DNA of 64,000 nt from Fermentimonas sp. (GTDB taxonomy: Bacteria > Bacteroidota > Bacteroidia > Bacteroidales > Dysgonomonadaceae), in the NCBI GenBank assembly GCA_015478775.1, contig JADMKP010000010.1:174593-238592 (forward strand), given 5' to 3'. Positions 1 to 19,762 of the stretch are shown piece by piece; positions within the stretch are counted from its first letter, which is position 1, and every line of letters starts with the position of its first letter. The position numbers and the translations under genes are program-made. A model generated the notes under the pieces. It did no database searches. It saw only the letters and a program-made list of their open reading frames with translations, and had not been told where the DNA came from.

Positions 1-241
1 GCGTTAATCAGGTGGATGAGAAAGTTTTGGAAGACTAAAACAAATACGCTTAAAGCATTTATAACTGGAATCAAGATGGATTTTTAAAGCTGTTAAAAAC
101 ACAATTAAATATAATGTTACAAATGGTATAACGGAAGGATTCGTAAACAAACTCAAAGTTGTAAAAAGAGTTATGTACGGAAGAGCTGGACTGGAACTGC
201 TCAAAAGGAAAATGATTATGGAGAAAATCCTTTTCAACTAA
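1..241 (+). pseudogene. ISL3-family transposase, C-terminal remnant
   Basis: Frame 1 from the window edge reads LIRWMRKFWKTKTNTLKAF and stops at 85-87. The reading continues in frame 2 from about 80 to the stop at 239-241 and contains NGITEGFVNKLK followed by KRVMYGRAGLELL. The pattern NG-x-x-EG-x-x-N-x-LK ... KR-x-MYGRA is the C-terminal signature of ISL3-family DDE transposases. One extra T in the run at 81-85 explains the frame change, so the gene is inactive, at least as seen here. The 5' part lies outside the window. Just downstream (242-300) is non-coding sequence that could hold the element's right end, but no terminal repeat can be verified with one end only. Confidence 0.72.
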
Positions 242-355
242 ATTGAAGAAGAACCACAAAAATCAGGACGACATAGACGATAAGGGTATCCTGTTACAAA
301 TTTGTATTATCATACCTTACCTGTTAACTTATAAAAGTATAACCTTACTGATAAA

Positions 356-547
356 CTACTGTAAAGGTTTTTGTTCGATTATTTGGCCTTCACTATTTCT
401 TCTTACTAAATAAGGCACGCCATCAATAATGACAATCTCATAACTTTGATCAGTGCTTTCTTTTCCTCCTTTTATGGCAGCTAAAGATTCAGAATTTAGA
501 TAATCGTTTGCAAAATTGTTGTAGATAATAAATGATTTTTTTTTCAT
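356..547 (-). CDS. double-glycine leader peptide without cysteines (putative secreted peptide precursor)
   Basis: Predicted 63-residue peptide. Residues 1-28 form a leader of the Bacteroidales double-glycine type: a basic start, then LNSESLAAIKGG, matching the usual L(S/N)-x-E-x-(L/M)-x-x-I-x-GG pattern before the cleavage point at Gly27-Gly28. The 35-residue core is acidic and polar (IVIIDGVPYLVRR, ending EQKPLQ) and has no Cys, so it cannot form the disulfides expected of the other precursor at 8602-8787. It is transcribed away from the histidine kinase gene. Its promoter carries the same repeat array as the export-like operon at 3026, so it is probably co-regulated. It may be a bacteriocin, a signalling peptide or a substrate for modification; the sequence does not decide. 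Family membership resembles the GG-Bacteroidales precursors (TIGR04149-like), judged by eye. Confidence 0.68.
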   Translation of the reverse strand: MKKKSFIIYNNFANDYLNSESLAAIKGGKESTDQSYEIVIIDGVPYLVRRNSEGQIIEQKPLQ

Positions 548-578
548 GCTGATTAATGATTAAATGTTTATAAAGTAT

Positions 579-644
579 CAAAGATGATTGTTTTTTTAAA
601 AAGTATGTCTAACAGGCATCTAACAAATCTCTAAGTAATCTAAC
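579..644 (-). promoter_or_regulatory. promoter with four-copy GTTAGA operator array, for the Cys-free peptide
   Basis: On the minus strand the array reads GTTAGA (644-639), CTTAGA (635-630), GTTAGA (624-619) and GTTAGA (613-608), with start-to-start spacings of 9, 11 and 11 bp. After exactly 21 nt comes CATCTTTG (586-579), a fair match to the Bacteroidota -7 element TAnnTTTG. The start codon of the peptide gene is at 547, leaving a short leader. The same layout is found at 2903-2968. Direct repeats with about 11-bp spacing are the normal target of OmpR/PhoB-type regulators, and one is encoded at 2138-2818. That it binds here is inferred. Confidence 0.75.
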
Positions 645-725
645 CGCCTAGATTATTTAGTCTTATTTAACACAAGGATTTTGTCATCATATTGCGTTCC
701 AGTTTTTATTTTATTTCTTTTTACT

Positions 726-733
726 TATATTTG
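726..733 (+). promoter_or_regulatory. -7 promoter box upstream of the histidine kinase gene
   Basis: TATATTTG matches the Bacteroidota consensus TAnnTTTG and lies 23 nt before the kinase start codon. No convincing -33 TTTG partner is seen at the usual distance. Confidence 0.45.
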
Positions 734-756
734 CTCATAAATGGTAATCTTAAATT

Positions 757-2109
757 ATGAAAAATAACATTTTGACTTTCGTTTCTGTAGCTGCCATTTT
801 CATGCTGATAATATCACAAGTAGTATGGGTAAAACAATTAATGGAGCGCGACAAACAACGCTTTAAAATGGAACTGGAGGAAACTTTACAGAATATTGTA
901 ACTTTTTCTCTATCTAAAGAGTTAAGTAAGAAAGGAAGTGCTAATAAACAAGATTTTGAACTTATTCCTCTTGATGCTTCCAAGCTGCCACCCGGAGCTA
1001 TAATTAAAGGATCGTTTGACACCAAAGAATATTCATCCGATAAAAATCTTGGTAATTTCTTAGTAGGAGTTTTTGCAGAAGACCTTTTGTTGGAAAACCA
1101 AATTTCACTTGAACCAATCGACTCACTTTTTCAAAGAGAATTTCCACATTATGCCGAAATCGCAGCTTATACAATGTCCATACAAAAAAATGATTCACTA
1201 TTGAGTAAGCTTTTTATAGACGAAAAAGATTCTATGATACTGGATGCCAGCAATAAAAGTGTTAATGTAAGTATACCGTTAGGTGAAACTGGCACTTTTA
1301 GATATACCGCCCAAGTAGTATTCAAGCCTACTATATATATTCAACGTTTGCGATCTGTTTCAGCACTTTCAGCTATAGCTGTTATTTTGATTTCAATACT
1401 TCTACTTAATCAACTGGTACAATTGAAAAGGAAGTCGGTTGAAATAGATATACATAAAACCGTTGTCAGAGGTATTGTGCATGATTTAAAATCACCACTT
1501 GCATATGTATTCACTATGCTTGACTCATTTGAGGATAATGAAACATATGAACCCAACAAAAAGAAATATAATATTGCTAAAATTCGAGTAAAACATCTTT
1601 CTAAAAAAATAGAAGTTCTTTTATCTACATTAAGAAATGAGAAAAACAAATTACATATCCAACCGGAAACATTTAATGTAACACAAAACTGTCTGGATAT
1701 ACTAAAAGAACTGAAGGTTGTTTACCGTGCAAAAAACATCAGTCATGTTATGCAAACAGACAATGATGTACTTATTAGAGTTGATCCTATATATTTTGAA
1801 GCATGCTTACGTAATCTGTTGGACAATGCAATCAAATATGCAAAAAATGATGTCCTGTTAAACATATCTATTAATTTTAAAAATAATCAAATGACATTAT
1901 CTATTGCTGATAACGGGAAAGGAATACTTGCAAATGAACAAAAGAAAATATTCAATGAGTTTTACCGTTCTCACAAAGACTCATCCCTAAATAGTCACGG
2001 TATCGGGTTATTTTTTTCGCAAAGGATTGTACAGGCTCATTCAGGTAAAATACTTCTTGAAAGTGTTTTCGGAAAAGGAAGCACTTTTACAATTGTACTA
2101 CCTCAATAA
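757..2109 (+). CDS. sensor histidine kinase of the peptide locus
   Basis: Membrane-bound sensor kinase of 450 residues. Transmembrane segments at about 5-25 and 203-222 enclose an extracytoplasmic sensor region of about 175 residues with no recognised domain. The cytoplasmic part starts with a HisKA dimerisation segment; the phosphorylated His is His242 in VHDLKSPL. An HATPase_c domain follows, with an N box (LRNLLDNAIKYA), a G1 box (DNGKGI) and a G2-like SHGIGLFFSQ. It ends 28 nt before the OmpR-type regulator gene, so the two form a two-component pair. The gene is divergent from the 356-547 peptide and lies upstream of the VKOR-fusion operon, so it may sense the peptide or envelope state. 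The signal is unknown. Confidence 0.9.
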   Translation: MKNNILTFVSVAAIFMLIISQVVWVKQLMERDKQRFKMELEETLQNIVTFSLSKELSKKGSANKQDFELIPLDASKLPPGAIIKGSFDTKEYSSDKNLGNFLVGVFAEDLLLENQISLEPIDSLFQREFPHYAEIAAYTMSIQKNDSLLSKLFIDEKDSMILDASNKSVNVSIPLGETGTFRYTAQVVFKPTIYIQRLRSVSALSAIAVILISILLLNQLVQLKRKSVEIDIHKTVVRGIVHDLKSPLAYVFTMLDSFEDNETYEPNKKKYNIAKIRVKHLSKKIEVLLSTLRNEKNKLHIQPETFNVTQNCLDILKELKVVYRAKNISHVMQTDNDVLIRVDPIYFEACLRNLLDNAIKYAKNDVLLNISINFKNNQMTLSIADNGKGILANEQKKIFNEFYRSHKDSSLNSHGIGLFFSQRIVQAHSGKILLESVFGKGSTFTIVLPQ

Positions 2110-2137
2110 CTTTAAAGTCATATTAAAATTAATCATT

Positions 2138-2818
2138 ATGGAAGATAATATCATAACAAAAATTATCCTTGTTGAAGATGATGTTGATATGGGGGAAGTA
2201 GTTTGTACAGCTTTAAAGACTGACCGATACAAAATACATTATCAAACAACACTTATCGGTATTGAAGGAATTGTTAAAGCATTTAATCCTTCAATTGTAA
2301 TTTTGGATGTGGAAATCGGGGAAGAAGATGGAATTATAGCAGCCTCTAAATTACTGATAGAATATCCACAACTTCCGATTTTATTTATTTCTTCACATAC
2401 AGATATAGAAAGTGTTACAAAGGGTATAAGTACAGGAGGCGTGGGATATTTACGTAAGCCTTTTGAAATAAAAGAATTAAAAGCTTATATTGATAGATTT
2501 TCAATAACTAACAAAAAATCATCTATTGTAAGAATAGGGAGTTTTACATTAAATAAAACAACACAGAGTCTAAGCAATTCTATTAGTTTAACAAAACAAT
2601 TGACTCCTTTAGAATATGGTGTTTTAAATATGTTGTATGACTACAAAGAGGAAGTGGTTACTTATGAGCAGCTTTCGGAAAAAGTCTGGTGTAAAAAATA
2701 TGAGCTGACAGAAGCTTCAATGAATAATGTGATATCCAAATTGAGAAAAATATTTGAAAATGATCAAAATGTATCCCTTCAAACATTGAAGAATATTGGC
2801 TATAAATTTCTTTGCTGA
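2138..2818 (+). CDS. OmpR/PhoB-type response regulator of the peptide locus
   Basis: 226 residues from the ATG at 2138; an open frame extends upstream to 2027 but overlaps the kinase gene and carries no receiver homology. The receiver domain has the acidic pocket Glu13/Asp14/Asp15, phospho-acceptor Asp57 in ILDVEI and the conserved Lys107-Pro108. Residues of about 128-226 form a winged-helix DNA-binding domain (LTPLEYGVLNML ... YEQLSEKVW ... NVISKLRKIF ... NIGYKF), as in OmpR/PhoB. It follows the kinase gene directly. The obvious candidate targets are the two GTTAGA arrays at 608-644 and 2903-2939, whose 11-bp repeat spacing fits tandem binding by this family. Confidence 0.93.
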   Translation: MEDNIITKIILVEDDVDMGEVVCTALKTDRYKIHYQTTLIGIEGIVKAFNPSIVILDVEIGEEDGIIAASKLLIEYPQLPILFISSHTDIESVTKGISTGGVGYLRKPFEIKELKAYIDRFSITNKKSSIVRIGSFTLNKTTQSLSNSISLTKQLTPLEYGVLNMLYDYKEEVVTYEQLSEKVWCKKYELTEASMNNVISKLRKIFENDQNVSLQTLKNIGYKFLC

Positions 2819-2902
2819 TAAACTTTGTTATTGTATACTTCCATTAATTTGAATATTATTTGGGAATCCTTTTTTGATGAATTATCTTGTTTTACTATTA
2901 TC

Positions 2903-2968
2903 GTTAGATTTGTTAGTTATTTGTTAGACTTTTATTAGAAACGCATTCAAAAAAAATCTCAATCTTTG
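2903..2968 (+). promoter_or_regulatory. promoter with four-copy GTTAGA operator array, for the VKOR-fusion operon
   Basis: GTTAGA (2903-2908), GTTAGT (2912-2917), GTTAGA (2923-2928) and ATTAGA (2934-2939) have start-to-start spacings of 9, 11 and 11 bp. After 21 nt comes AATCTTTG (2961-2968), a -7-like element. The first gene of the operon starts at 3026. Spacings and the gap to the -7 box are identical to those of the minus-strand promoter at 579-644. The last repeat lies where a -33 element would be, which suggests activation at a promoter lacking a good -33 box. Confidence 0.78.
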
Positions 2969-3025
2969 CGAAAAGATAAAATTTAAATATAACTTTTTAC
3001 ATATATTTATTAATGAGTTCTAACC

Positions 3026-4432
3026 ATGAGAGATAATATTTTAACTACATTTCTTAGATTAGCTGGAGTGAAATACACCTATTCATTTTCAAGGCAGTAT
3101 TTTACAGAACACCCACATAAATTTAATTTGTTCGGATTATCATCCATGCTTACAGATTACGGTATTGAGAATGTTGGTGTGAAAATTTCAGATAAGAATG
3201 ATATCAGATCGTTAGACCCTCCTTTTATTGTTCATACCGGAAATGATTTTGCTGTTGTTGAAAAAATTTCAAACGATAATATCCTTTTTATTGAAAGGAA
3301 TAGAAAAATAAAAATCACACTGGGCAAGTTTTTTGAAATGTGGACAGGAAACACCCTGATTGCAGAAACAGACAAAACTTCGAAAGAACCGGATTATGAA
3401 ATTCATTTTAGAGAGGAATTATTTCAGAATTTACGAAAAATCGCGATCCTGTTTATTCTGCTTTTTTTATTTGCCTTTGCTTTTATCTCTTATAGAAGTT
3501 TTGCACAGATGGGGGTAGTACTATTGCTTCTGATAAATTTTGCAGGTGTATATATAGGCTATTTATTGGTTTTAAAACAGCTACATATACAAAGTGATTA
3601 TGCAGATAAAATATGCTCGCTATTTAAATATAATGATTGTAACAAAATATTAGATTCTGATTCTGCCAAATTTATGGGCGTTATAGGATGGAGTGAGATC
3701 GGTCTGGGCTATTTTATATCAAACGTAATTATTCTTTCACTATTACCGTCATTAATTCCTTGCATGCTTTTTATAAATATCTTTTGCTTACCCTATACCT
3801 TCTGGAGTATCTGGTATCAGAAGTTCAAGGCAAAACAATGGTGCCCTATGTGCTTAATTGTATTGTTATTGCTATGGGGAATATTCATTTCTGGTTTGGT
3901 ATTTGGTCTTATTAATTTTTATTCTATAACTTTCTGGGGGATAGTGATAACTGGTGGTATATATACAGTTGTTATTTTAACCATCAGTATGCTTATCCCG
4001 GTGATTTCACGAAGTTCAAAACTTGAGAGTATCCAGTTTGAAATTAACAGTATAAAGTCGGATATTGACGTATTTAATATATTATTAAAAAAACAACCTT
4101 TTTACAAGGTAAATAAAAATACATCAGGGATATTAATGGGAAACTCTAATTCTAATATGTTGATAACAATATTTACAAATCCTCATTGTAATCCTTGTGC
4201 TAAAATGCATCAAAGAGTTAATAATCTAATTTATAATAAACAGGACATCTGCGTCCAATACATTTTTTCATCGTTCGATAAAGAATTGGATGTTTCTAAC
4301 AAGTATTTAATTGGAGTTTATCAACAAAGAAATGGGGAAAAAGAACAAATATTTAACGAATGGTTTGAGAAAGGGAAAAATAATAAAGATAGTTTTTTTA
4401 CAAAATTCCCAATTAATATTAATTTAATATAA
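3026..4432 (+). CDS. membrane fusion: degenerate C39-like domain, VKOR domain, short thioredoxin-like domain
   Basis: 468 residues in three parts. Residues 1-115 resemble the C39 (bacteriocin-processing peptidase) fold found in front of such fusions, but there is no Cys in this part and the usual His region reads FIVHTGNDFAVV, so it is probably not a protease. Residues of about 135-325 form a multi-pass VKOR domain with loop cysteines Cys197 and Cys205 and the active-site CPMC at 273-276. Residues of about 365-468 start a thioredoxin-like fold with CNPC at 388-391 but end before the region expected to hold the cis-Pro loop. VKOR-Trx fusions make disulfides in exported proteins; the six-Cys peptide downstream is a natural substrate. 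First gene of the operon, under the GTTAGA promoter; 11 nt precede the next gene. Confidence 0.82.
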   Translation: MRDNILTTFLRLAGVKYTYSFSRQYFTEHPHKFNLFGLSSMLTDYGIENVGVKISDKNDIRSLDPPFIVHTGNDFAVVEKISNDNILFIERNRKIKITLGKFFEMWTGNTLIAETDKTSKEPDYEIHFREELFQNLRKIAILFILLFLFAFAFISYRSFAQMGVVLLLLINFAGVYIGYLLVLKQLHIQSDYADKICSLFKYNDCNKILDSDSAKFMGVIGWSEIGLGYFISNVIILSLLPSLIPCMLFINIFCLPYTFWSIWYQKFKAKQWCPMCLIVLLLLWGIFISGLVFGLINFYSITFWGIVITGGIYTVVILTISMLIPVISRSSKLESIQFEINSIKSDIDVFNILLKKQPFYKVNKNTSGILMGNSNSNMLITIFTNPHCNPCAKMHQRVNNLIYNKQDICVQYIFSSFDKELDVSNKYLIGVYQQRNGEKEQIFNEWFEKGKNNKDSFFTKFPININLI

Positions 4433-4443
4433 TAGAAATCATC

Positions 4444-5376
4444 ATGAAATTTAAGAAAATTAGTTCCTTAGCAATTGCGTGTATTATTTCGTTTTGGAAT
4501 ATAAATGCTCAAGTAAACCAAGATATACCTGTAAAAATAGGTGGATCGTATCAAAAGGATACAGAGTACCAAAAAGCAATAGAAAAAATAAAACTAGATG
4601 ATGCACAACTTCGTGTAACTTATCAGTTTAAATATGGTGTAATTAAACAAAAAGATATTTCATTTATTACAGATACAATGTTGCTGATTACCGGTGATAA
4701 TTATTCAATCTATTTTGATCAGAATGATATAAAAAGACGTGATGCATTTTCTTCTTATGTTAGACAAAATGGTCCCCCTCAGGTGTTTATGTCTACCTCA
4801 CAAAGTGAATTCTCGGAGTTAACTATTAATGAGAACAACTATTTTAGTCCTTCAGAATCAGGAGAAACAGCTCAATTGTATAAAGACCGGGGAAAAAATT
4901 TTATCACTGTTATGGATTTTGATAATTCTAATTTTGGTGCAAGTGAGTTATATTTTTATCAAGAAGAATCTATTCATATACCATGGGAGATAAAGGAAGA
5001 TACAATTTCTGTTTTGGGATATCTGTGCACAAAAGCTAACTGTGATTTTGGAGGAAGAATATATACAGCATGGTTTACTCAGGATATTCCTATAAATGAA
5101 GGTCCATACAAATTTTACGGTTTACCAGGCATGATTCTTAAGATTGAAGACTCGGAAAAGCTTTTTCAATTTGAAGCAATTGGATTAGAAAAATTAGAGA
5201 ATGCCGAAATTGTAATCGACGAAAATTCAAGATACTTAAAATGTACAAAAGAGGAGTATAGCACTATTAAAAAGAGAATGCGAGAAAATTTTACGGAATT
5301 TTATCGTGAAGGAATGTCGCTTAATTATTCTTATAGGAAAAATGGAATTGAATATATTCCTATTGAAAAGATATAG
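4444..5376 (+). CDS. GLPGLI family protein (copy 1)
   Basis: 310 residues with a Sec signal peptide (about 1-22, ending NINA-Q). The family signature is present as GPYKFYGLPGMILKI (about residues 218-232), followed by FQFEAIGLEKL. GLPGLI proteins (TIGR01200) are exported Bacteroidota proteins of unknown function, typically next to a TonB-receptor-like outer-membrane protein. Here the next gene follows after 3 nt and is such a protein. A second copy is encoded at 8873-9790. Lone cysteines occur in the middle of the chain. A role in secretion, processing or immunity for the peptide is a guess from the neighbourhood. Confidence 0.88.
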   Translation: MKFKKISSLAIACIISFWNINAQVNQDIPVKIGGSYQKDTEYQKAIEKIKLDDAQLRVTYQFKYGVIKQKDISFITDTMLLITGDNYSIYFDQNDIKRRDAFSSYVRQNGPPQVFMSTSQSEFSELTINENNYFSPSESGETAQLYKDRGKNFITVMDFDNSNFGASELYFYQEESIHIPWEIKEDTISVLGYLCTKANCDFGGRIYTAWFTQDIPINEGPYKFYGLPGMILKIEDSEKLFQFEAIGLEKLENAEIVIDENSRYLKCTKEEYSTIKKRMRENFTEFYREGMSLNYSYRKNGIEYIPIEKI

Positions 5377-5379
5377 CTT

Positions 5380-8010
5380 ATGAGGTTTTTTTGTGTGATA
5401 TTTCTTTTATGCACATGTATTTATTCTTCCTTTTCTCAAAAGGAGATAGGCGGTCGTGTTATAAATAAAGACAACAATAATCCCTTACCTTCTGTCAACG
5501 TTACGCTGCATCCGGCTGGTTCTCCGAATATACTTACATATACTATAACAGGTGAGGATGGAGGGTTCACACTTAAAATGAATAATATGCCCGATTCGGT
5601 AACAATATATGTAAGGGCAATGACTATCGAAGCTCAGTCGAAAACAATAAAAAGCAATAACCCAGGCTTTATAGAATTCGCCGTTGATGAGAAGGTAACC
5701 GAATTGAAGGAAGTTATTGTAAAAGCTCCCAAAATCAGACAGATGGGCGATACTATAAATTATTCCGTATTGTCATTCATTGATGAAACCGACCGCAGTA
5801 TTGGTGATGTGTTGAAAAAACTGCCTGGTGTACAGGTTTTGTCTTCAGGTAAGATTTTATACCAGAACAAAGAAATTAGTAAGTTTTATGTGGAGGGACT
5901 CGATCTGTTGCAGGGAAAATATGGAGTAGCAACCAATAATATCGATGCACAGCAAGTAGCAACTGTACAAGTTTTAGAGAATCATCAGCCTATAAAAGCA
6001 CTAAAAGATATGGAAGTTCCTGAGAATGCTGCCATCAACCTTAGGTTAAAACAATCGGCATTAGGGGCATTTTTTGTTACTGCTCAGTCAGGAGCCGGTC
6101 TACCGCCATTACTATTGAGTAACGAGCTGATAGGCATGCGCTTTACCCGCACACAACAGAATATGCTGGTTTATAAAGGGGACAACACCGGAAGAGATAT
6201 TTCCAAGGAACTTACCTCTTTCTATGATATGTTCAGTACCCCTATTAACTTTATGTCGGTTCAGGCACCCTCACCGCCTTCTATACAGGAGCAACATTAT
6301 TTATTCAATGATGCACACGTGATTTCTCTTAACGATTTGAGAACTTTAAAAAAAGATTTCATACTTACCAGTAATCTGAATTATCTGTACGATAATCAGA
6401 AAAGCAACAGTTTTGCCAAACAAGATATATTTGTAGATCAAGGACAGCCCATTCATATAGCGGAAGATTTGAGTTCGAGGTTTAATAAACGAGAACTGGA
6501 CGGTAATATTTCATTGGAATCAAATACAGACGTTGGTTTTCTTGAAAATAAATTCCATATAACTTCTAAATGGAATGACATGTTTGGGGATGTGGCTGCT
6601 GCACAAAATGTTTCCCAATGGCTAAAAACACCTTCCTTTAAAGCAGAAAACAAATTCAATTACCTAAAGCGAGAAAATACCAAACGTTTTAGAGTAGGCT
6701 CCACAATATCATTTAACACACACGATCATGTATTGCAAGTATCACCGATTCTTTATGATAATTTCAGTGTTTTTTCACCCGGAGATACGATAATGAGTCA
6801 GAATGTCTCGTTCAATCATTTTAAAGCCGATATGTATATATCTGGTGGAAATGAGAAAGGTCGCTTTGCAACCGACTACCGGCTTGGAGCATTTGCTAAC
6901 CTGTATAACATGAACTCCGAGATTTTGATGGGACAAACTGATATTCCTATATCTGCAGACAGTCTAAGAAATGACATAAAACGAAACGAAACAGGTGCAG
7001 AACTATCAACAATGGTGGCATACCGATTCTCTTCGGAAAGCCGTTTGTATACAAATATCCCTGTGAAGATATTATATCTTGACAGGCAGGATAGGGTACG
7101 CGATGCTAATAAGGACAATATGTTTTTGTTATTCGGTCCGAGTATATCATTGCAACATAGATTCACTATCAGAACCGAATTGGACGCTAATTTATCTTTT
7201 TCCAATAATATAGGTTCTATAACTGAAGATTACATTGGTTATATAATGACAACCTACCGCAGCCTCAATAAAAACGAAGGCATACTAAGTAAAAATAGGC
7301 AAACATCTGCTTACGTATATCTGAATCACAGAAACCCGTTTACCACTCTTTTTACGACACTAAGCTTATCTTATACCAATCAATGGAAGAATCTGTTGTA
7401 CGATATCCGTTATAGTGGGATATTGAACAACACTGTAAGTATAAGTCACCCAAACAACTCACAATACTATGGAGCGAATTTAACTTTGGGTCAGAGTGTG
7501 GATGCCATCAATTCGGAGGTCAGAATTGCTGCCAGATACAACCGCAGCAATTCGCTTTCACTGAACCAAGGAATTATTTCAGAATTCACATCTAATTCTT
7601 TTTCTGTATCACCCTCTATAAAAACAGACATTAGACGAAACCTAATCACCCAATACAGTGCAACATACCAACACAGCAATAACAAAATTAAGGCAGGTGT
7701 TTTACCTTCAATAAATTACTTCTCACAGAATTTAAGTATATCTTTTTTACCGGTAAAAAAACTGATTTTCAATTTAACGTTCAATCATTATTATAATAAT
7801 CTGATAGAATCTAATTCACGCTCGTCATTGTTTGGAAATGCCGGTATAAAGTATAAATGGGAAAAGATTGATTTAATGCTCGACTGGACAAATATTTTCA
7901 ATACCAGTCGATTTGTAACATACTCCTACAGCGATATCAGCAGCTATTATTCCTCGTATAACCTAAGACCTGCAGAATTGTTACTAAGGGTGAGATTTAA
8001 AATATTATAA
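5380..8010 (+). CDS. outer-membrane beta-barrel protein with carboxypeptidase-regulatory-like and plug-like domains
   Basis: 876 residues with a signal peptide (about 1-19). An N-terminal carboxypeptidase-regulatory-like beta-sandwich follows (GGRVINKDNNNPLPSVNVTL, about 24-100). Next comes a plug-like region (GDVLKKLPGVQVL, about 148-160, then FYVEGLDLL), and a long beta-barrel segment reaches the C-terminus. This is the architecture of the TonB-receptor-like proteins that accompany GLPGLI proteins. No clear TonB box is evident, so it may be a pore or secretion partner and not a classical nutrient receptor. The gene lies 3 nt after the GLPGLI gene and is probably translationally coupled. The barrel C-terminus ends in ...LLLRVRFKIL, as is common for these proteins. 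Confidence 0.85.
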   Translation: MRFFCVIFLLCTCIYSSFSQKEIGGRVINKDNNNPLPSVNVTLHPAGSPNILTYTITGEDGGFTLKMNNMPDSVTIYVRAMTIEAQSKTIKSNNPGFIEFAVDEKVTELKEVIVKAPKIRQMGDTINYSVLSFIDETDRSIGDVLKKLPGVQVLSSGKILYQNKEISKFYVEGLDLLQGKYGVATNNIDAQQVATVQVLENHQPIKALKDMEVPENAAINLRLKQSALGAFFVTAQSGAGLPPLLLSNELIGMRFTRTQQNMLVYKGDNTGRDISKELTSFYDMFSTPINFMSVQAPSPPSIQEQHYLFNDAHVISLNDLRTLKKDFILTSNLNYLYDNQKSNSFAKQDIFVDQGQPIHIAEDLSSRFNKRELDGNISLESNTDVGFLENKFHITSKWNDMFGDVAAAQNVSQWLKTPSFKAENKFNYLKRENTKRFRVGSTISFNTHDHVLQVSPILYDNFSVFSPGDTIMSQNVSFNHFKADMYISGGNEKGRFATDYRLGAFANLYNMNSEILMGQTDIPISADSLRNDIKRNETGAELSTMVAYRFSSESRLYTNIPVKILYLDRQDRVRDANKDNMFLLFGPSISLQHRFTIRTELDANLSFSNNIGSITEDYIGYIMTTYRSLNKNEGILSKNRQTSAYVYLNHRNPFTTLFTTLSLSYTNQWKNLLYDIRYSGILNNTVSISHPNNSQYYGANLTLGQSVDAINSEVRIAARYNRSNSLSLNQGIISEFTSNSFSVSPSIKTDIRRNLITQYSATYQHSNNKIKAGVLPSINYFSQNLSISFLPVKKLIFNLTFNHYYNNLIESNSRSSLFGNAGIKYKWEKIDLMLDWTNIFNTSRFVTYSYSDISSYYSSYNLRPAELLLRVRFKIL

Positions 8011-8022
8011 AAATAAATTAAA

Positions 8023-8298
8023 ATGAAAAATAAAATTGTTTTTATTATTATTTATTTGGGAGAGTTTCCGTGGTATTTTCCTTATTTCTTAAAGTCCTGT
8101 GCCTTTAATCCTGATATTGATTTTAAAATTTTTAGTGATAATAATATTCCACCATCTGTTAAGCCTTCTAATGTTTAATTAATAAATTATTCTCTTGGTC
8201 AATTTAATAAGGATGCTGCCATAGCCCTGAGCATTTATATCAAATTAAGAGAAACATATAAGCTTTGCGATTTTAAACCTGCATATGGTTTCCATTAA
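8023..8298 (+). pseudogene. DUF6625-type (glycosyltransferase-like) gene remnant
   Basis: The ATG at 8023 opens MKNKIVFIIIYLGEFPWYF, then FLKSCAFNPDIDFKIFSD, resembling the start of DUF6625 proteins (FIIPYFGKFP-type start, LKSC, D-F-x-IF-x-D). A stop at 8176-8178 interrupts it. In the same frame the reading continues to LRETYKLCDFKPAYGF, which fits the conserved YK-x-CD-x-KPAYG segment of that family, and stops at 8296. The rest of the protein (normally about 300 residues) is missing. It is a broken, 3'-truncated gene inside the peptide operon. Such genes often lie in surface polysaccharide or peptide loci, so the intact ancestor may have acted on a product of this locus. Family assignment is by eye. 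Confidence 0.6.
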
Positions 8299-8482
8299 TA
8301 TAATATCAATTTTATATGAAGAAGGAGTTGCTATCACATTTAGAGAATTAGAAAAGAAGATGTCTGAATTATTTGATAGAGTAGAAAATGATGGAATTGC
8401 TATCAGATCACTGTTAATAAGGAGTTTGAAATTTTTAGTAGGGAGTAATCTTGTTTATTTGGACAAAGATATTGAGTTCTAA
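8285..8482 (+). CDS. small hypothetical protein or 3' gene fragment
   Basis: 65-residue frame overlapping the end of the DUF6625 remnant. The sequence is coding-like, with EEGVAITFRELEKKMSEL and SLLIRSLKFLVGSNLVYLD, a helix-rich pattern ending in a short hydrophobic strand. No ribosome-binding site stands out and the ATG lies inside the remnant, so it may be the C-terminal scrap of a larger deleted gene fused to the remnant by the same deletion. Function unknown. Confidence 0.35.
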   Translation: MVSINIISILYEEGVAITFRELEKKMSELFDRVENDGIAIRSLLIRSLKFLVGSNLVYLDKDIEF

Positions 8483-8601
8483 TGAAAATTAATATTCATT
8501 GTGTGTTTAGCCAATCAATTATATAGTCAATTTGGAGCGAAGCGACATTAGCGAAAATGAGACATAATTTTAATCCTTGTCGCAATAAAAAATTATTTAT
8601 T

Positions 8602-8787
8602 ATGAAACAGTTAAGTAAAATTAAACTGCAAAACTCTATTTTATTAGAGGAACAGGAAATGAAGCGTATTTATGGAGGAAGTGGTTATTCGTGGTGTTGT
8701 ATTCAAGGCGAATGCGTCGGTCCGTTGATAAGCTGTACTAGTGACTATTGTGAAAAGCATTACGGAAGCGGTGCTTATTGCGATTAA
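8602..8787 (+). CDS. six-cysteine double-glycine peptide precursor (putative disulfide-stabilised bacteriocin)
   Basis: 61 residues from the ATG at 8602; an in-frame ATG at 8557 would add 15 residues that do not fit the leader pattern. The leader MKQLSKIKLQNSILLEEQEM is followed by KRIYGG, with cleavage expected after Gly26, as in GG-Bacteroidales precursors (TIGR04149-like). The core of about 35 residues has Cys at 32, 33, 38, 45, 50 and 60, many Gly and aromatic residues, and little charge. Six cysteines could form three disulfides, which fits the VKOR/thioredoxin fusion encoded at 3026. Bacteroidetocins also use double-glycine leaders, but no sequence match is claimed. No radical-SAM maturase or ABC exporter is present in the window. 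A hairpin terminator follows at 8806. Confidence 0.8.
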   Translation: MKQLSKIKLQNSILLEEQEMKRIYGGSGYSWCCIQGECVGPLISCTSDYCEKHYGSGAYCD

Positions 8788-8805
8788 CAATGACATTATT
8801 TACAA

Positions 8806-8847
8806 AGTTCCCTGAATCTCTCTTTAAGGTTTTTCAGGGAACTATTT
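8806..8847 (+). terminator. hairpin terminator after the six-Cys peptide gene
   Basis: AGTTCCCTGAA (8806-8816) pairs with TTCAGGGAACT (8833-8843), followed by a short T-rich stretch (ATTTT). It lies 18 nt after the peptide stop codon and before the second GLPGLI gene, so it may raise peptide mRNA relative to the downstream gene. Confidence 0.7.
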
Positions 8848-8872
8848 TAAATCACTATAAATCATATAAGAT

Positions 8873-9790
8873 ATGAATACAATCATAAAAAAGGTTGCAG
8901 TACTGCTTTTCACTATCACATTATGTGTTTTAAATGTGTTATCACAAACAGATGAGGAAACAGTAAGAATTAAAATTGGAGGCATCTCAATAAATAGTGA
9001 AAACCACCAAGTACTTGATACATGTCAAATTGGGGTATATTATAATTATACATACCCACAAAAAAGTGAATCTATAATAGAAAAAAGATCTGACACATTA
9101 TTTCTGGCTATAGGTAAGAATGTATCTGTCTTTTTAGATCCGTTATACAAAGAAAAATTAGAGATTGACAGAAAAGCTAGATTTGCCCGCTCTCGCAAAG
9201 CTAAACTGATAAATAATGAATACAGTAATATTAATGATATCCTTGAAGTGATTAATATTAATAGCGATTATAAAGAAGATGACCCAGGTGACCCGGTTCA
9301 AATATATAAAAACCGAAATGCCTTATTGGTTTCATCTATTTATAATTCATATGTTGACAATATACAATGTGATCAGATGATTAATCAAATGCATGAATGG
9401 GAGATTATTGAAGAAACTGATACTATTATGGGATATTTATGTCAGAAAGCTAAAATTAATTATTCCGGGAGGAATTATACTGCATGGTTTGCAAAAGATA
9501 TTGCGGTAAATGATGGTCCTTGGAAATTCTGGGGACTACCGGGTTTGATTTTAAAGTGTTCGGACGACGATGGGTTATTTGAATGGGTTGCTATTGGCAT
9601 TTCAAACTTAAATGCTGACATAGTAAAAGATAAAGTTGTTTATGAAAAAATCCATATAAAAGGTTTTAACAATTTTGTTAAAAGAATGACAAATGAAATT
9701 ATAGTGAGTTTTTATAACAACGATGTTTTATACATGACAAATAAAGAAAGAGAATATGAAAGAGTTCCCATAGAGATAATATATGATTAA
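8873..9790 (+). CDS. GLPGLI family protein (copy 2)
   Basis: 305 residues with a signal peptide (about 1-24, ending NVLSQ). The family signature is GPWKFWGLPGLILKC (about residues 219-233), followed by GLFEWVAIGI. It is a paralogue of the 4444-5376 product; both share the GYLCxKA and YTAWFxxDI segments just before the signature. It follows the six-Cys peptide and its terminator by 85 nt. Having one GLPGLI gene on each side of the outer-membrane protein and peptide suggests both belong to the same system. Exported; molecular function unknown for the family. Confidence 0.88.
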   Translation: MNTIIKKVAVLLFTITLCVLNVLSQTDEETVRIKIGGISINSENHQVLDTCQIGVYYNYTYPQKSESIIEKRSDTLFLAIGKNVSVFLDPLYKEKLEIDRKARFARSRKAKLINNEYSNINDILEVININSDYKEDDPGDPVQIYKNRNALLVSSIYNSYVDNIQCDQMINQMHEWEIIEETDTIMGYLCQKAKINYSGRNYTAWFAKDIAVNDGPWKFWGLPGLILKCSDDDGLFEWVAIGISNLNADIVKDKVVYEKIHIKGFNNFVKRMTNEIIVSFYNNDVLYMTNKEREYERVPIEIIYD

Positions 9791-10083
9791 TACTATGATT
9801 AATTATATATGGTGGTGGTTTGGCTAATTGGATGGGGTATAGAATATCTCATCCAAAATGGATTTGTAGAGGGTGATAATGTAAATGTTTGCGAAGAGAA
9901 TGATCAGAAGATAATGAGAACCGATATTCGAAAAATTATAGTTTATTAGAAGAAAACTATAATTTGCCAACATATGAATTCACTTGGTTTAAAAAATGCA
10001 TTGGCAGACATTCTGGTTATATTTGTACTTAAAGATAGAAAGTATCATAATTCGCTGTTTTCATAAAAGATAAAAATTATAAA
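9791..10083 (+). other. decayed gap with coding-like scraps
   Basis: No intact gene is seen. A 46-residue frame at 9809-9949 (WLIGWGIEYLIQNGFVEGDN ... MRTDIRKIIVY) and an unstarted frame ending at about 10030 (EENYNLPTYEFTWFKKCIGR) both look like coding fragments but match nothing recognised. TATATTTG at 10018-10025 is a possible -7 box for the pseudogene at 10084. Confidence 0.4.
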
Positions 10084-11774
10084 ATGAAAATAATCAACCT
10101 TATAAATATCTGTCTTGCTTTCCTGCTTATCTCTTCAGGCGCTTTTTTACAAACTGTATCTGCTGACTCAATAAGGAGTTACTTCTACACACAGAGCAAT
10201 GTTTTTCCTCAGGAAAAGATATATGCTCATACGGACAGATCTGACTACTTTATAAATGAAACCATCTGGTTCAGGGCATATTTAGTAAATGCACAAACCC
10301 ATATTTCTGATCCGAAGAGCAACTTTGTTTACGCAGAGCTGATTAATCCTGCAGGTGAAGTTGCAAACCGTGTGAAGGTGAAGAAACTGGACAACGTGTT
10401 TGCAGGGTATATGCTTCTTAATGAAGATCTGCCATCAGGAAATTATCAGCTAAGGTTTTATACCTTATACATGACAAACATGAGTGAGAACTATTTCTGG
10501 AGTTGTTGTAAATGCATCGGGTGATACATTAAATACATTCCGATCAACTCATCTTGGCATGGGTATCATTACCATGAATATCAGCAGCATGGAGCCGCTT
10601 TATGCTGTTTGCAGTAATTCTGAAGGGTTGGAGAAAAGAGTTCAGCTTCCTGCAATTGAAGATGGGAAACCATCATTCAGAGCAGACTGGAGAAACAATA
10701 ACATGCTGGTTTCGATAAATAAGCCTAAGGGCTATATCATATCAGAAAAGCAATACCTGCTACTGCATTGCAGAGGCGAGATTATTTATAGCGAGCCGTG
10801 GGAAAGTGAAAGTGCGATTGTCGGTCTCCCCGGCAATAATCTCCCCTGAGGAGTATTGCATATAATGCTTTTGGATGAAGAGCTTAATCCGGTTAGTGAA
10901 AGACTGGTATTAAATATTAATGAGCTTGATGTTACAACAATCGAGATTATGACAAACAATAGCAGTTTTGGTCTCAGAGAGCGTGTGGGTGTAACCGTAA
11001 CTGCAAGTGATGCATCAGGTCAGCCGCTAAGTGACAGTTTCTCCGTTTCAGTTACCGATAATGAGATTGTAACATACGATAATTCAGTTAATATTCTTTC
11101 TACTCTGCTTTTAACTTCAGACCTTCAGTGATATATCAAGTCTCCTGCCTCCTTTCCAGATAGTACGCGTTTTATTGTTCAGGGTAACACCCCTAAGGGA
11201 GGTGCTGGTGATAAAATAGAAGTTACAGATATGCAGGCACCAGAGAGCAGTTTTACCCCTTTTGGCAGATCCACACATTGGGCAACGAGTTCGTTTTCGA
11301 AAAAAGTGACAGCTAAAGAAATAGAAGTGCTTCGTCCGTCAAGTATGCTTGAACTGCTTATATTGACACCCGGATTGGGGATCATGGGTGGTCAGGTTTA
11401 TATTTCAAGATATTCAGGGTGTTGACATACTCTCAGGTGGTGTTGGAGGATTTGGATATGCAGTGCCGATTGCAAAAAACAGATACTGGGTTGATTGGTT
11501 TTGGTGTACACAGTTTATCGTGGTTTACAAAAAGTTCTTTCAAAAAATTCTTGATTACGAATTTAAAGACACAGATACAGCTGATGGGGTTATATCGATG
11601 TTGTCAAATAATTTAATGACACTTTATCCTTTTATTTCTAAGCAAAAAAAATCATTATCAATGCCCTATTATATCTTATTAGTCAGAACTAAAAAGATGA
11701 GAGAAGAAGATGTATTGAGTCGAAATATTGTGATGTATAAAATGCAATATTATTTTATTTATTATGATGATTAG
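10084..11774 (+). pseudogene. MG2 / TonB-plug-containing outer-membrane protein, decayed
   Basis: The start is normal: signal peptide, then FPQEKIYAHTDRSDYFINET and IWFRAYLVNAQTH, an MG2-type domain, until the frame breaks at about 10500. Later pieces follow the usual order of this family in other frames. Examples are HLGMGIITMNIS with AVCSNSEGLEKRVQLP (10484-10849), MLLDEELNPVSERL ... SVSVTDNEIV ... NILSTLLLTSDLQ (10856-11131), FPDSTRFIVQGNTPKG (about 11150-11200) and KEIEVLRPSSMLELLILTPG (about 11310-11370), the start of a plug domain. Stops, frameshifts and missing blocks show at least two internal deletions. No barrel can be recognised after about 11430; the frame to 11774 is obscure. Intact members have about 800-950 residues. 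Confidence 0.78.
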
Positions 11775-11794
11775 TAAGAAAAACTAATTTTTTC

Positions 11795-11802
11795 TATCTT
11801 TG
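11795..11802 (+). promoter_or_regulatory. -7 promoter box for carA
   Basis: TATCTTTG is a perfect TAnnTTTG match. It lies 66 nt before the proposed carA ATG at 11869, so the TTG at 11800 cannot be the start of translation. Confidence 0.55.
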
Positions 11803-11868
11803 TGTCCTAATATCATAGGGTATCAAATCAAATTAATATTACACTCACTTATGCAGAGAGTTTTACCG

Positions 11869-13014
11869 ATGCGATTGATCTTAGAAAACGGAATGGTTTT
11901 TAAAGGACAATCATTTGGAGCCGAAAGGCCATCATCGGGAGAGGTTGTTTTCAGTACTGCAATGGCAGGTTATCCCGAAAGCTTAACAGACCCCTCCTTT
12001 AAAGGACAAATTTTATTATTAACATATCCAATAATCGGAAATTACGGAGTTCCTGCTAATAGCGAGACAAACGGAATTTCCGATTTTTTTGAATCCAACC
12101 GCATACATGCATCCGGGTTGGTTGTACAAGACTATACACCACAATATTCTCATTGGAATGCTGTGGGGAGCTTGGGCAACTGGCTAAAAGATGAAAATGT
12201 ACCCGGGATTTTTGGTATAGATACACGTAAACTAACAAAGATTATCAGGGAGAACGGGTCGTTATTGGGTAAAATAGTAATAGACCTAGATTCAAATGGT
12301 AGTGAGGTTGATAATCTTTATGATCAATTTCACGATAATTTACATGATGATAACGGTAATAAACATGGTAATGAACCTAGTAATGTAGATTTTTATAATC
12401 CAGATAATTACAACCTTGTGGCAGAGGTTAGCTGCAATGAGGTTGTAGAATATGGTAACGGCGATAAAAAGGTTGTACTAGTAGATTGCGGTACAAAGCT
12501 CAATATTATCCGTGAATTGGTGAAAGAGGGATTAAAAGTTGTGAGAGTACCTTGGGATTATGATTTTAACACTATAGAATATGATGGGGTAGTGATATCA
12601 AATGGCCCTGGGAATCCTGAATATTGTGGTATAACTGTTGATAACATACGTCAGGCAATGCAAAAAGATCGCCCCATTTTTGGAATTTGTATGGGCAATC
12701 AGCTCTTGGCCAAAGCAGCCGGAGCTTCCACATATAAATTAAGATACGGACATCGCAGCCACAATCAACCAGTGCGCAGGGTAGGTAGTAACCAATGTTT
12801 TATCACCTCCCAAAACCATGGATATGCTGTAGATGAAACTCAATTGGGAAGCGACTGGGAACCGTGGTTTGTGAATATGAACGATGCAACAAATGAAGGA
12901 ATAAAACATAAAACAAAACCCTTTTACTCGGTTCAGTTTCACCCCGAGGCAGCAGGAGGACCCACTGATACTCGTTTTTTCTTTGAGGAGTTTGCTAAAT
13001 TAGTAAAAGAGTAA
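11869..13014 (+). CDS. carA: carbamoyl-phosphate synthase small (glutaminase) subunit
   Basis: Supplies ammonia from glutamine to the large subunit for pyrimidine and arginine synthesis. From the ATG at 11869 (MRLILENGMVFKGQSFGAE) it has 381 residues, the usual size; an ATG at 11851 is also possible. The N-terminal CPSase domain has the GEVVFSTAMAGYPESLTDPS signature. The C-terminal class I glutaminase domain has nucleophile Cys274 in FGICMGNQLLA and catalytic His358 and Glu360 in QFHPEA. An Asn/Asp-rich stretch at about 143-180 is longer and less complex than its surroundings. A -7 box lies upstream and carB1 follows after a 218-nt gap with a repeat array. Confidence 0.96.
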   Translation: MRLILENGMVFKGQSFGAERPSSGEVVFSTAMAGYPESLTDPSFKGQILLLTYPIIGNYGVPANSETNGISDFFESNRIHASGLVVQDYTPQYSHWNAVGSLGNWLKDENVPGIFGIDTRKLTKIIRENGSLLGKIVIDLDSNGSEVDNLYDQFHDNLHDDNGNKHGNEPSNVDFYNPDNYNLVAEVSCNEVVEYGNGDKKVVLVDCGTKLNIIRELVKEGLKVVRVPWDYDFNTIEYDGVVISNGPGNPEYCGITVDNIRQAMQKDRPIFGICMGNQLLAKAAGASTYKLRYGHRSHNQPVRRVGSNQCFITSQNHGYAVDETQLGSDWEPWFVNMNDATNEGIKHKTKPFYSVQFHPEAAGGPTDTRFFFEEFAKLVKE

Positions 13015-13066
13015 AGCTTCCTCGTTACAAATGAAAACAAATTAATAATTGGTTTACTATTTTATT

Positions 13067-13158
13067 AAACAACAGTCTCATAATACATAAAACAACAGTT
13101 TTATGATTTATAGAATAAATGATTTACAATTAGTTAAACAAATAGTTTACAATTATTA
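13067..13158 (+). repeat. 23-bp tandem repeat array, four degenerate units
   Basis: Units start at 13067, 13090, 13113 and 13136, each exactly 23 bp. Units 1 and 2 start AAACAACAGT and unit 4 starts AAACAAATAG, followed by AT-rich sequence with a TTA-rich end; unit 3 is the most diverged. A further AAACAAGTAGT occurs at 13177, out of phase. The array fills the gap between carA and carB1 and ends 75 nt before the carB1 ATG. There are no unique spacers, so this is not CRISPR. It resembles the array at 26366-26474. Confidence 0.7.
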
Positions 13159-13232
13159 TTTGGTTCAAAATATATAAAACAAGTAGTCAATGAATTGTAA
13201 CTGATTCACTATTTAATAATAAGATGCGAATG

Positions 13233-16200
13233 ATGGATAAAAACATAAAGAAAGTACTAGTTCTCGGTTCAGGTGCATTAAAAATTGGCGAAGCAGGAGA
13301 GTTTGACTACTCAGGTTCACAAGCACTTAAGGCGTTGAGAGAAGAAAACGTGGAGACAGTACTTATAAATCCTAATATAGCAACAGTGCAAACCTCTGAA
13401 GGGGTTGCAGATAAGATATATTTTTTGCCTGTTACACCATATTTTGTAGAAAAAGTAATTGCACGCGAGAAGCCCGACGGTATATTATTGGCTTTTGGCG
13501 GACAAACAGCTCTTAATTGTGGAGTTCAATTATATGAACAAGGCATCTTAGAAAAATACAATGTACAAGTACTTGGTACGCCCGTTAGAGCTATAATGGA
13601 TACCGAGGACAGGGAGCTTTTTGTAAAGAAGCTTGACCAGATTGATGTTAAAACAATAAGTAGTGTTGCAGTATCAGATACTAAAGGTGCATTAAAAGCA
13701 GCAAAAGAACTTGGATATCCGGTGATAGTTAGAGCTGCATATGCCCTAGGAGGCTTGGGTTCTGGCTTTTGCGATAATGATACAGAACTAAAAGAACTAA
13801 CAGAAAAAGCTTTCAATTATTCTAGTCAGCTATTAATTGAAAAATCACTTAAAGGATGGAAAGAGGTTGAGTATGAGGTTGTGCGTGATAAATACGACAA
13901 CTGCATTACTGTTTGTAATATGGAAAACCTCGATCCACTTGGTATTCACACAGGCGAGAGTATTGTTGTGGCTCCTTCCCAAACACTTACAAACTCAGAA
14001 TATCATAGGTTGCGAGAACTTGCAATTAAAATTGTTAGGCATATTGGTATTGTAGGCGAGTGCAATGTGCAATATGCGCTACACCCCGAATCGGAAGATT
14101 ATAGAGTGATAGAAGTAAATGCAAGGCTTAGCAGATCATCTGCACTGGCTTCAAAAGCAACTGGCTACCCCTTGGCGTTTGTTGCAGCAAAGCTTGGATT
14201 GGGTTTCGGGTTGTTTGATCTTAAAAACTCTGTAACAAAAACCACCACTGCATTTTTTGAACCTGCGCTCGATTATGTGGTTGTTAAGATTCCTCGCTGG
14301 GATTTGGGTAAATTTAGCGGTGTATCAAAGCAAATTGGTTCAAGTATGAAGTCCGTGGGCGAGATTATGTCGATAGGTAGAACTTTTGAAGAAGCAATTC
14401 AAAAAGGCCTGCGCATGATTGGCGTTGGGATGCACGGATTTGTAGAAAATAAAGAGCTGAAGATTGATGATATAGATAAAGAACTGAAAGAGCCAACCGA
14501 CCAACGAATATTTGTGGTAAGTAAGGCTTTTAGACAAGGCTATACAGTAGACCAAATACACGATCTTACACGAATAGACCGCTGGTTTTTATATAAACTC
14601 AGAAATATCGTTGACACTGCTGAGTTGCTAGAGAAGTTTAATCATAAAGAAATGGATCCTAAAAGCTTCAATTCATTATTAAGATTAGCAAAGCAGCAGG
14701 GCTTCTCAGATTTTCAAATAGCCCGTGCATTATACAAAGATAAGGCCAATGAGAGCAGTTCGCTTGCAATTCGCAATTACAGAAAGGATAACGGCATAAC
14801 ACCCGTTGTTAAGCAAATAGACACACTTGCGGCGGAGTATCCAGCACATACTAACTATCTGTACCTTACATATAACGGTGAAGAAAATGATGTTGAATAT
14901 ACGGGCGATCACAATTCGGTGATAGTGATAGGCTCAGGTGCATACAGAATTGGCTCGTCGGTTGAGTTCGACTGGTGCTCTGTAAACGCTTTAAACACAG
15001 TTCGCAAGGAGGGTTACAGGGCTGTAATGATAAATTATAATCCCGAAACAGTATCAACAGATTATGATATGTGCGACAGGCTCTATTTCGATGAGCTTTC
15101 GCATGAGAGGGTGTTAGATATTATCGATCTTGAGAATCCGCATGGAGTAATACTTTCTGTTGGAGGACAAATACCTAATAATCTAGCCATTAAACTAGAT
15201 AATGCAGGTGTTAATATATTGGGCACATCGGCAAAAGATATTGATAATGCAGAAGATAGGCATAAGTTTTCGTCCATGCTCGACAGGATGAAAATTGATC
15301 AGCCCAAATGGAAAGAGCTAACCACACTCAACGATATATATAAGTTTGTAGAAGAGGTAGGTTTTCCGCTATTGGTACGCCCATCATACGTTTTATCGGG
15401 TGCAGCAATGAATGTGTGCTCAAATAATAGTGAGCTGGAGCGCTTTCTAACACTGGCAACTGAGGTTTCGAGCAAATACCCGGTTGTGGTGTCAGAATTT
15501 ATAGAAGATGCCAAGGAAATAGAGATGGATGCGGTTGCCCAAAACGGAGAACTTATTGTTTATGCCATCTCAGAGCATGTGGAGTTTGCAGGGGTGCACT
15601 CGGGCGATGCAACAATTTTATTTCCTGCACAAAAGATTTATGTTCAAACTGTTAGAAGAATAAAACGGATAACAAGGGAGATTGCCAAAGCGTTGAATAT
15701 AACGGGTCCGTTTAATATTCAATTCCTTGCAAAAGACAATGATATAAAGGTAATTGAGTGCAATCTGAGAGCTTCAAGATCGCAACCCTTCGTTTCTAAG
15801 GTGTTAAAAATTAACTTTATAGAGCTGGCAACTAAAGTAATGCTTAACATAGATGTGGATAAACCCGAGAAGTCTGCCTTCGATTTGGATTATGTAGGAA
15901 TAAAGGCTCCGCAGTTTTCATTTACAAGATTGCAGAAAGCCGACCCCGTGCTTGGGGTGGACATGGCTTCGACGGGAGAAGTAGGGGCTATTGGTGCGCA
16001 TTTTGATGATGCACTTCTAACTTCAATGTTGTCGGTGGGTTATCGCATTCCAAAAAAGAATATAATGGTTTCGTCGGGAGGCACCAAATCTAAAGTAGAT
16101 TTACTGGATGCTTGCAGGCTTTTAAAGAAAAATGGATTTGACATTTTTGCTACAGGCGGAACTCAAAAATTTTTGGAAGAGAACGGAGTTGAGAGTACCT

Positions 16201-16457: not shown

Positions 16458-16501
16458 TAAATTATAATAGAAAATCAAAACGGTAATATATAGATAAATA
16501 A

Positions 16502-19717: not shown

Positions 19718-19762
19718 TTAAAGTAATAAATATTTGATTAAGAGATCACAATTAATTAAATA

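Follow-up and report, generated by a model that had tools for sequence, protein, structure and literature searches.

TTAG-repeat arrays beside a double-glycine peptide gene and a candidate peptide-responsive two-component regulon in Fermentimonas sp.

The streptococcal Com and Blp systems use HPK10 kinases and LytTR regulators. In sections of one account, CSP/ComDE and BlpC/Blp are described as auto-inducing peptide loops, and the ComE and BlpR sites as a direct-repeat operator common to the peptide promoter and the processing operon (PMC4739721). PhoB, as part of another paper has it, binds two 11-nucleotide (nt) direct repeats head to tail (PMC4415409). For Bacteroides promoters, the relevant portions of PMC7366714 give TAnnTTTG at −7 and TTTG near −33, and note that one global survey failed to find the −33 element in this phylum. 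Bacteroidales clusters with radical-SAM (rSAM) enzymes, PCAT and double-glycine peptides are described in excerpts of PMC10352776, where one cluster, BGC5, has a kinase and a regulator, and nearby signalling proteins are said possibly to point to signalling. Bacteroidetocin regions are described in PMC6671954, in whose main text the terms two-component and histidine kinase are absent. Here we analyse a stretch of 64,000 nt from Fermentimonas sp. (assembly GCA_015478775.1, contig JADMKP010000010.1, positions 174,593 to 238,592), referred to below as the window. It has two arrays of short direct repeats, which we interpret as putative operators, with the genes for a histidine kinase and an OmpR/PhoB-type response regulator between them; array 1 precedes pep1, the gene for a cysteine (Cys)-free double-glycine precursor, and array 2 precedes the gene for a VKOR fusion protein (Table 1).

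With some reserve, we favour the reading of this locus as a two-component regulon for a peptide-making cluster with a pep1 pheromone loop. A preliminary description of the locus had omitted the histidine kinase gene between the arrays, the recurrent pairing of kinase and peptide genes, and the fact that this genome has lost export genes, all of which are treated below.

The repeat arrays and the regulator

The copies in array 1 are GTTAGA, CTTAGA, GTTAGA and GTTAGA (minus strand, 644–608), and those in array 2 are GTTAGA, GTTAGT, GTTAGA and ATTAGA (plus strand, 2903–2939), with start-to-start spacings of 9, 11 and 11 in both. The preliminary description had four identical GTTAGA copies per array; its spacing stands and the identity does not, as the exact hexamer is found in five of the eight copies, the other three have one change each, and only TTAG is invariant in all eight. 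Similarly, the gap between the last hexamer and the ATCTTTG box is equal in the two arrays, as had been claimed, but its length is 22 nt. The earlier figure of 21 nt holds only to the 8-mers CATCTTTG and AATCTTTG at the two boxes, and the coordinates given with it (586–579 and 2961–2968) become 585–579 and 2962–2968 for ATCTTTG itself.

The window contains exactly two arrays of four TTAG cores with each spacing between 8 and 14, and both of these are 9/11/11. In 300 shuffled windows there were 0.04 such arrays per window (12 shuffles had one or more), with no 9/11/11 array and no case of two arrays sharing a spacing; the shuffles, here and for the relatives' loci below, keep dinucleotides only approximately. 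We also searched the whole genome (2,897,645 bases in 13 contigs), allowing up to two mismatches and using the reversed pattern as a control. This is the genome-wide search with 9/11/11 spacing that the preliminary description had proposed, and the window's two arrays are indeed the only exact matches in the 2.9-Mb genome. Five further places have two mismatches, making seven in all. Because the reversed control gave six places, these five are at background level, and we rejected the looser arrays as regulon sites. Two of them overlap (L004 and L005, viewed via L004) and lie between the 3′ ends of two convergent open reading frames (ORFs), one of which reads, by eye, like a transposase.

Of 150 genomes searched, 8 (the window's own among them) have a relative of the regulator at E values up to 1e-30. 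The alignment search with the regulator gave 38 named loci and was used in place of a profile of the kinase N-terminus, which matched 3 of 393 genomes of the order. We read 20 of the 38 loci, among which L036, L037 and L039 are the same DNA as L023, L025 and L024; the 15 rows L058–L072, at 22–32% identity, were left out, save L059 and L060, which served as outgroups in the tree. Among the 22 promoters read in the window and its relatives, most were chosen as neighbours of peptide genes, while L076 and L080 came from the array pattern itself (8 places in 4 of 7 genomes with up to one mismatch; control 4).

A 9/11/11 array is present at 11 of these 22 promoters: two in the window, two in the relative G008 (whose DNA here is almost identical to that of the window, so that they are not independent), three in Seramator thermalis, and one each in Proteiniphilum acetatigenes, Proteiniphilum UBA5384, L035 and L038. 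Eight of the arrays have no core mismatch and three have one. Without exception, 22 nt separate the array from a −7-like box, the final base of which is G in eight and A in three. The L035 contig, which is filed under a Methanobrevibacter metagenome-assembled genome, has kinase, regulator, array and peptide; its regulator is 67% identical to that of the window, and it is therefore probably misbinned Bacteroidales DNA. A one-mismatch place in G008 (L079) was rejected, as it shows no link to the peptide cluster.

The promoters without a 9/11/11 array are those of L040, L044, L051, L052, L054, L055 and the Marinifilaceae-type loci L041, L042, L043, L045 and L046. In L040 (genome G074), TTAG repeats are spaced 10/11/10. 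At L051, L052, L054 and L055 the repeats recur every 11 bp around a TTA core, and their distance to the −7 box is unchanged: the stretch from the proximal TTA to where the box ends measures 31 nt. Three such TTA repeats combined with this fixed distance, used as a search pattern, match 17 times in 22 loci (16 distinct, L049:754 and L076:1526 being one place); 40 shuffles averaged 0.4 matches, with at most 2. One match, L044:4517, lies away from the kinase promoter region and another, L046:7442, points towards the kinase; the pattern misses L035, L040 and the Marinifilaceae loci.

The repeat word is GTTAGA in the regulator group formed by the window, L035, L036, L039 and L049 (tree support 93/92), GATTAT, every 11 bp, in the group of L051, L052 and L054 (100/100), and in several Marinifilaceae (100/98) there are GATTAG pairs 22 nt apart. 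In the sequences compared, it is the repeat word that follows the regulator clade, while the distance to the putative −7 box stays constant. In the Labilibaculum loci L041–L043 (Marinifilaceae), a pair of GATTAG copies 22 nt apart stands before the peptide gene, with inverted copies after the pair; the operator layout there differs though the gene pair is the same. The preliminary description had taken the arrays as an OmpR/PhoB-type operator that links the Cys-free leader peptide to the VKOR operon and whose proximal repeat stands in for the −33 element. This reading fits the recurrence of the array at half of the promoters, the constant gap, within the 9/11/11 arrays and across clades, and the lack of arrays, described next, at VKOR loci of genomes in which no regulator relative was found.

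We then asked which gene the arrays accompany. Exact arrays occur at 9 places in 6 of 101 genomes of the family, and five of the six have a regulator of at least 50% identity. Among 14 loci with relatives of the VKOR fusion, arrays precede the VKOR genes of the window, G008 and G074 (the last at 10/11/10). There is no array at any of the 10 VKOR loci in nine genomes without a regulator match, nor at the second VKOR relative of G074 (L094), on the VKOR strand of each locus with about 1500 bases of flank; two-repeat matches at L085 and L093 were judged to be at chance level. These nine genomes are counted among the 150 searched for the regulator on the basis of an identical sample request and handles. 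Because none of these 10 loci has an array, the arrays follow the regulator rather than the VKOR gene, which is ruled out as their anchor. From these comparisons, a regulatory link from the regulator to both arrays is very likely.

In the sixth genome, G061, the exact array (L112) precedes a gene whose relative in Seramator (L080, genome G042) also has a near-perfect array. Both genes encode a protein of about 480–494 amino acids (aa) with a lipoprotein-like start (LLIACHKQ), and may represent a further regulon member.

Peptide genes beside the kinase

At 14 of 19 loci, window included, the kinase start has a divergent ORF for a Cys-free double-glycine peptide no more than 700 nt away. Such a neighbour is present at 2 of 147 other long ORFs of these loci (mechanically called, uncurated, at least 250 aa). 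The 19 loci exclude L037, L050, L056 and L057, where contigs end, and L053, where no kinase was found. The misses are L051 and L055, discussed below; L044, with a short frame with KGG from ATG only; L049, with an in-frame stop; and L046, where a peptide is present by eye and fails the residue rule.

Most of the mature peptides have a common core, for example YEIVIIDGVPYLV, YVIVIIDGEEVRIYV or TITIIIDGKEYTIEV; that of Segatella is an exception. The L052 peptide scores above the Pfam cut-off for ComC (21.2 against 20.4 bits), with the match in the leader only, and apart from this the loose family searches of the peptides gave only leader-level or chance matches. The neighbouring clusters vary, with radical-SAM genes in P. 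acetatigenes and Seramator, and VKOR genes in the window, G008 and G074. In G074, pep1 and then the VKOR gene stand behind the single 10/11/10 array. L054 has a second array, in front of the gene for a further double-glycine peptide; this peptide contains Cys. In Seramator thermalis the in-frame stop is in the kinase-adjacent copy of pep1 (L049), and a second, intact pep1 with its own array lies 6.7 kb away (L110), in line with radical-SAM, CarbopepD-like and C39-ABC genes.

Table 1. Genes and putative regulatory elements of the locus, in window positions
Feature	Position	Strand	Basis
pep1, 63-aa Cys-free double-glycine precursor, candidate signal peptide	356..547	-	ORF; homologues divergent to kinase
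−7-type box ATCTTTG, putative pep1 promoter	579..585	-	sequence read
Operator array 1 (putative), four TTAG cores at 9/11/11	608..644	-	sequence read
TATATTTG, full match to −7 consensus TAnnTTTG, 5′ of kinase gene	726..733	+	
Membrane histidine kinase with periplasmic domain	757..2109	+	Pfam HATPase_c; relatives aligned
OmpR/PhoB-type response regulator	2138..2818	+	Pfam Response_reg and Trans_reg_C, both above cut-off
Operator array 2 (putative), four TTAG cores at 9/11/11	2903..2939	+	sequence read
−7-type box ATCTTTG, putative VKOR operon promoter	2962..2968	+	sequence read
C39-like, VKOR and thioredoxin fusion, 468 aa, first gene of second operon	3026..4432	+	Pfam
GLPGLI family protein	4444..5376	+	TIGR01200 above cut-off
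CarboxypepD_reg-like protein, 876 aa	5380..8010	+	Pfam CarbopepD_reg_2
Cys-rich double-glycine peptide	8557..8787	+	TIGR04149 above cut-off

The regulator of Table 1 is the presumed binder of both arrays. We infer that the TATATTTG box could serve as the promoter of the kinase gene; no array is present on the plus strand at this box. The pep1 product matches no Pfam or NCBIfam family above cut-off, and the Cys-rich double-glycine peptide is a possible cargo. The C39 match of the VKOR fusion begins at about profile position 26–28 of 133, which leaves the beginning of the domain unmatched; this is the part in which we take the catalytic Cys of C39 to be located. Just beyond pep1, at about 130–230, the window resembles, by eye, the C-terminal end of a transposase.

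Proposed circuit and alternatives

By analogy with PhoB and with Bacteroides promoters, we are confident that the phosphorylated regulator would occupy each array with two dimers in head-to-tail order. The proximal repeat, next to the −7 box, would take the −33 place, a position that implies activation, and pep1 and the VKOR operon would be switched on together. The peptide loop is a closer question, on which we lean slightly towards the following: pep1 would leave the cell and be cleaved behind the double glycine, and its Cys-free core would be read as the signal by the periplasmic domain of the kinase, giving auto-induction as in CSP/ComDE and BlpC/Blp. The loop would switch on genes that mature and export other peptides, ones that contain Cys. 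With rather more hesitation, falling somewhat short of an even chance, we suggest a pheromone system across the Bacteroidales, in which Cys-free double-glycine peptides, with cores like YxVIIDGxxVxI, would each have their own divergent kinase and OmpR-type regulator. Binding 11-bp direct repeats set at a constant distance from the −7 box, the regulator would auto-induce the peptide, together with neighbouring clusters for modified, Cys-containing peptides.

Several observations weigh against this circuit, and we give them with the alternatives on which they bear. The alternative that survives best, possible though somewhat doubtful in our view, accepts that the regulator controls both promoters via the arrays and has the kinase sense another cue (envelope state, redox or a metabolite), pep1 being a co-regulated effector or cargo and not the signal. 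The model of the periplasmic part of the kinase has a mean pLDDT of 73.0, which is of moderate confidence, and its structural matches are weak and mixed, with small-molecule sensors among them; there is a weak likeness to PDC/Cache-like sensors, a group with small-molecule binders, and the domain gave no alignment to the sequences of solved structures up to E 1. Because the model is moderate and its matches weak and mixed, a small-molecule signal is possible. Sensing of another cue would also fit L051 and L055, which have array and kinase with no such peptide (L055 has another gene there, radical-SAM-like by eye), and the absence of a C39-ABC exporter described below. Against it, the peptide recurs beside the kinase while the cluster genes shift from VKOR to radical SAM, and the nearby cargo-like peptides carry Cys, whereas the pep1-like peptides have none. 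Furthermore, distances between mature peptides track those between sensor domains (r = 0.88 over 14 loci; 0 of 2000 permutations) more than those between kinase domains (r = 0.80), with partial correlations of 0.62 for the sensor given the kinase domain and −0.09 the other way. This correlation is only suggestive, because the peptides are short and the permutation leaves shared descent in.

A second alternative, which we consider unlikely, is that the locus is a remnant in this strain, with array, kinase and regulator kept and export and maturation genes lost, the circuit being no longer whole. No C39-ABC exporter was found in the window's genome, where the VKOR fusion is the sole match to PF03412, and C39 matches were found in G008 and in five of the other six genomes searched (none in G029). 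Downstream in G008 there are a C39-ABC exporter, an HlyD-type protein, two LanC-like proteins, glycosyltransferases and another Cys-containing double-glycine peptide; this stretch (L109, 9702–18463) has no blastn match in window positions 1–20000. At 8011–10016 of the window, only short pieces match the same G008 stretch. The VKOR ORF has 468 aa compared with about 519–540 in its closest relatives, and decay occurs elsewhere, as in the Seramator pep1 with its in-frame stop. The window, however, retains intact kinase and regulator genes, the two arrays with their −7 boxes undamaged, and an intact pep1 frame. The kinase and regulator differ from those of G008 by only 4 and 0 residues (4 of 451 and 1 of 227 codons, compared with L021), the remaining comparisons being 8 of 61 codons for pep1, five of them synonymous, and 89% identity for VKOR; recombination is a possible source of this uneven divergence across 356–4432. 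A remnant would limit present function in this strain, not the ancestral mechanism. With the exporter missing, the usual way out of the cell may be closed to the signal here, and the proposed loop may be broken or rewired in this strain.

A third alternative, very improbable in our view, has some other regulator binding the arrays, or takes them for a chance or structural repeat without connection to the 2138–2818 gene. It could draw on G061, with an exact array and no close regulator (best 26%), and on the reversed control, which in the 101 family genomes still gave 4 places, in 3 genomes, where the array itself gave 9, in 6. It is opposed by the regulators of at least 50% identity in five of the six genomes, the fixed −7 distance with clade-specific repeat words, the 0 of 10 at VKOR loci, and a stretch beside the G061 array that reads, by eye, like the start of the kinase. 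The reversed pattern reads as GATT repeats and is possibly not a neutral control here. Also counting against the proposed circuit are G029 (51% regulator), which shows no array on a contig that ends 244 nt before the kinase gene, and G074 and G105 (41% and 42%), which are without an exact 9/11/11 array.

Comparison with known systems

If the favoured reading is true, it describes a cell–cell signal in the Bacteroidota with a readable operator, and the signal peptide, the regulon and the cluster-inducing conditions would be predictable from sequence. Even without the pheromone step, the fixed distance between repeat and promoter provides a search pattern for activator-dependent promoters in the phylum. 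In open-licence PubMed Central, a scope outside which most subscription papers and preprints fall, we found neither a peptide-pheromone kinase/regulator circuit in the Bacteroidota nor an operator for such peptide clusters.

The Bacteroidales RiPP and bacteroidetocin clusters, in the parts of those accounts to hand, have double-glycine peptides with radical-SAM or thiol-oxidoreductase and C39-ABC genes, as do the window's relatives; no operator or regulon is given in the same parts of either account, nor any Cys-free peptide dedicated to signalling.

The Pho box, in the part of its description drawn on above, resembles the window arrays in having head-to-tail 11-nt direct repeats for a Trans_reg_C regulator, and also in position, with the proximal repeat at the place of the −33/−35 element. 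The window arrays differ in having four half-sites, one 9-nt step, a TTAG word and a Bacteroidota −7 box. Their targets are peptide genes, and they are a predicted operator, known from sequence.

ComCDE and BlpC–BlpRH are like the window in placing a Cys-free double-glycine peptide beside a kinase and a regulator and, in the sections of the account cited at the outset, in having a direct-repeat operator common to the peptide and processing-operon promoters. By contrast, the window has a HATPase_c kinase and an OmpR-type regulator and comes from a Gram-negative host, in whose genome we found no exporter gene, and the signal role of its peptide is putative. The regulator is of the Trans_reg_C type, with no LytTR match in Pfam; the system is therefore not a member of the Com/Blp family, and may still work like one.

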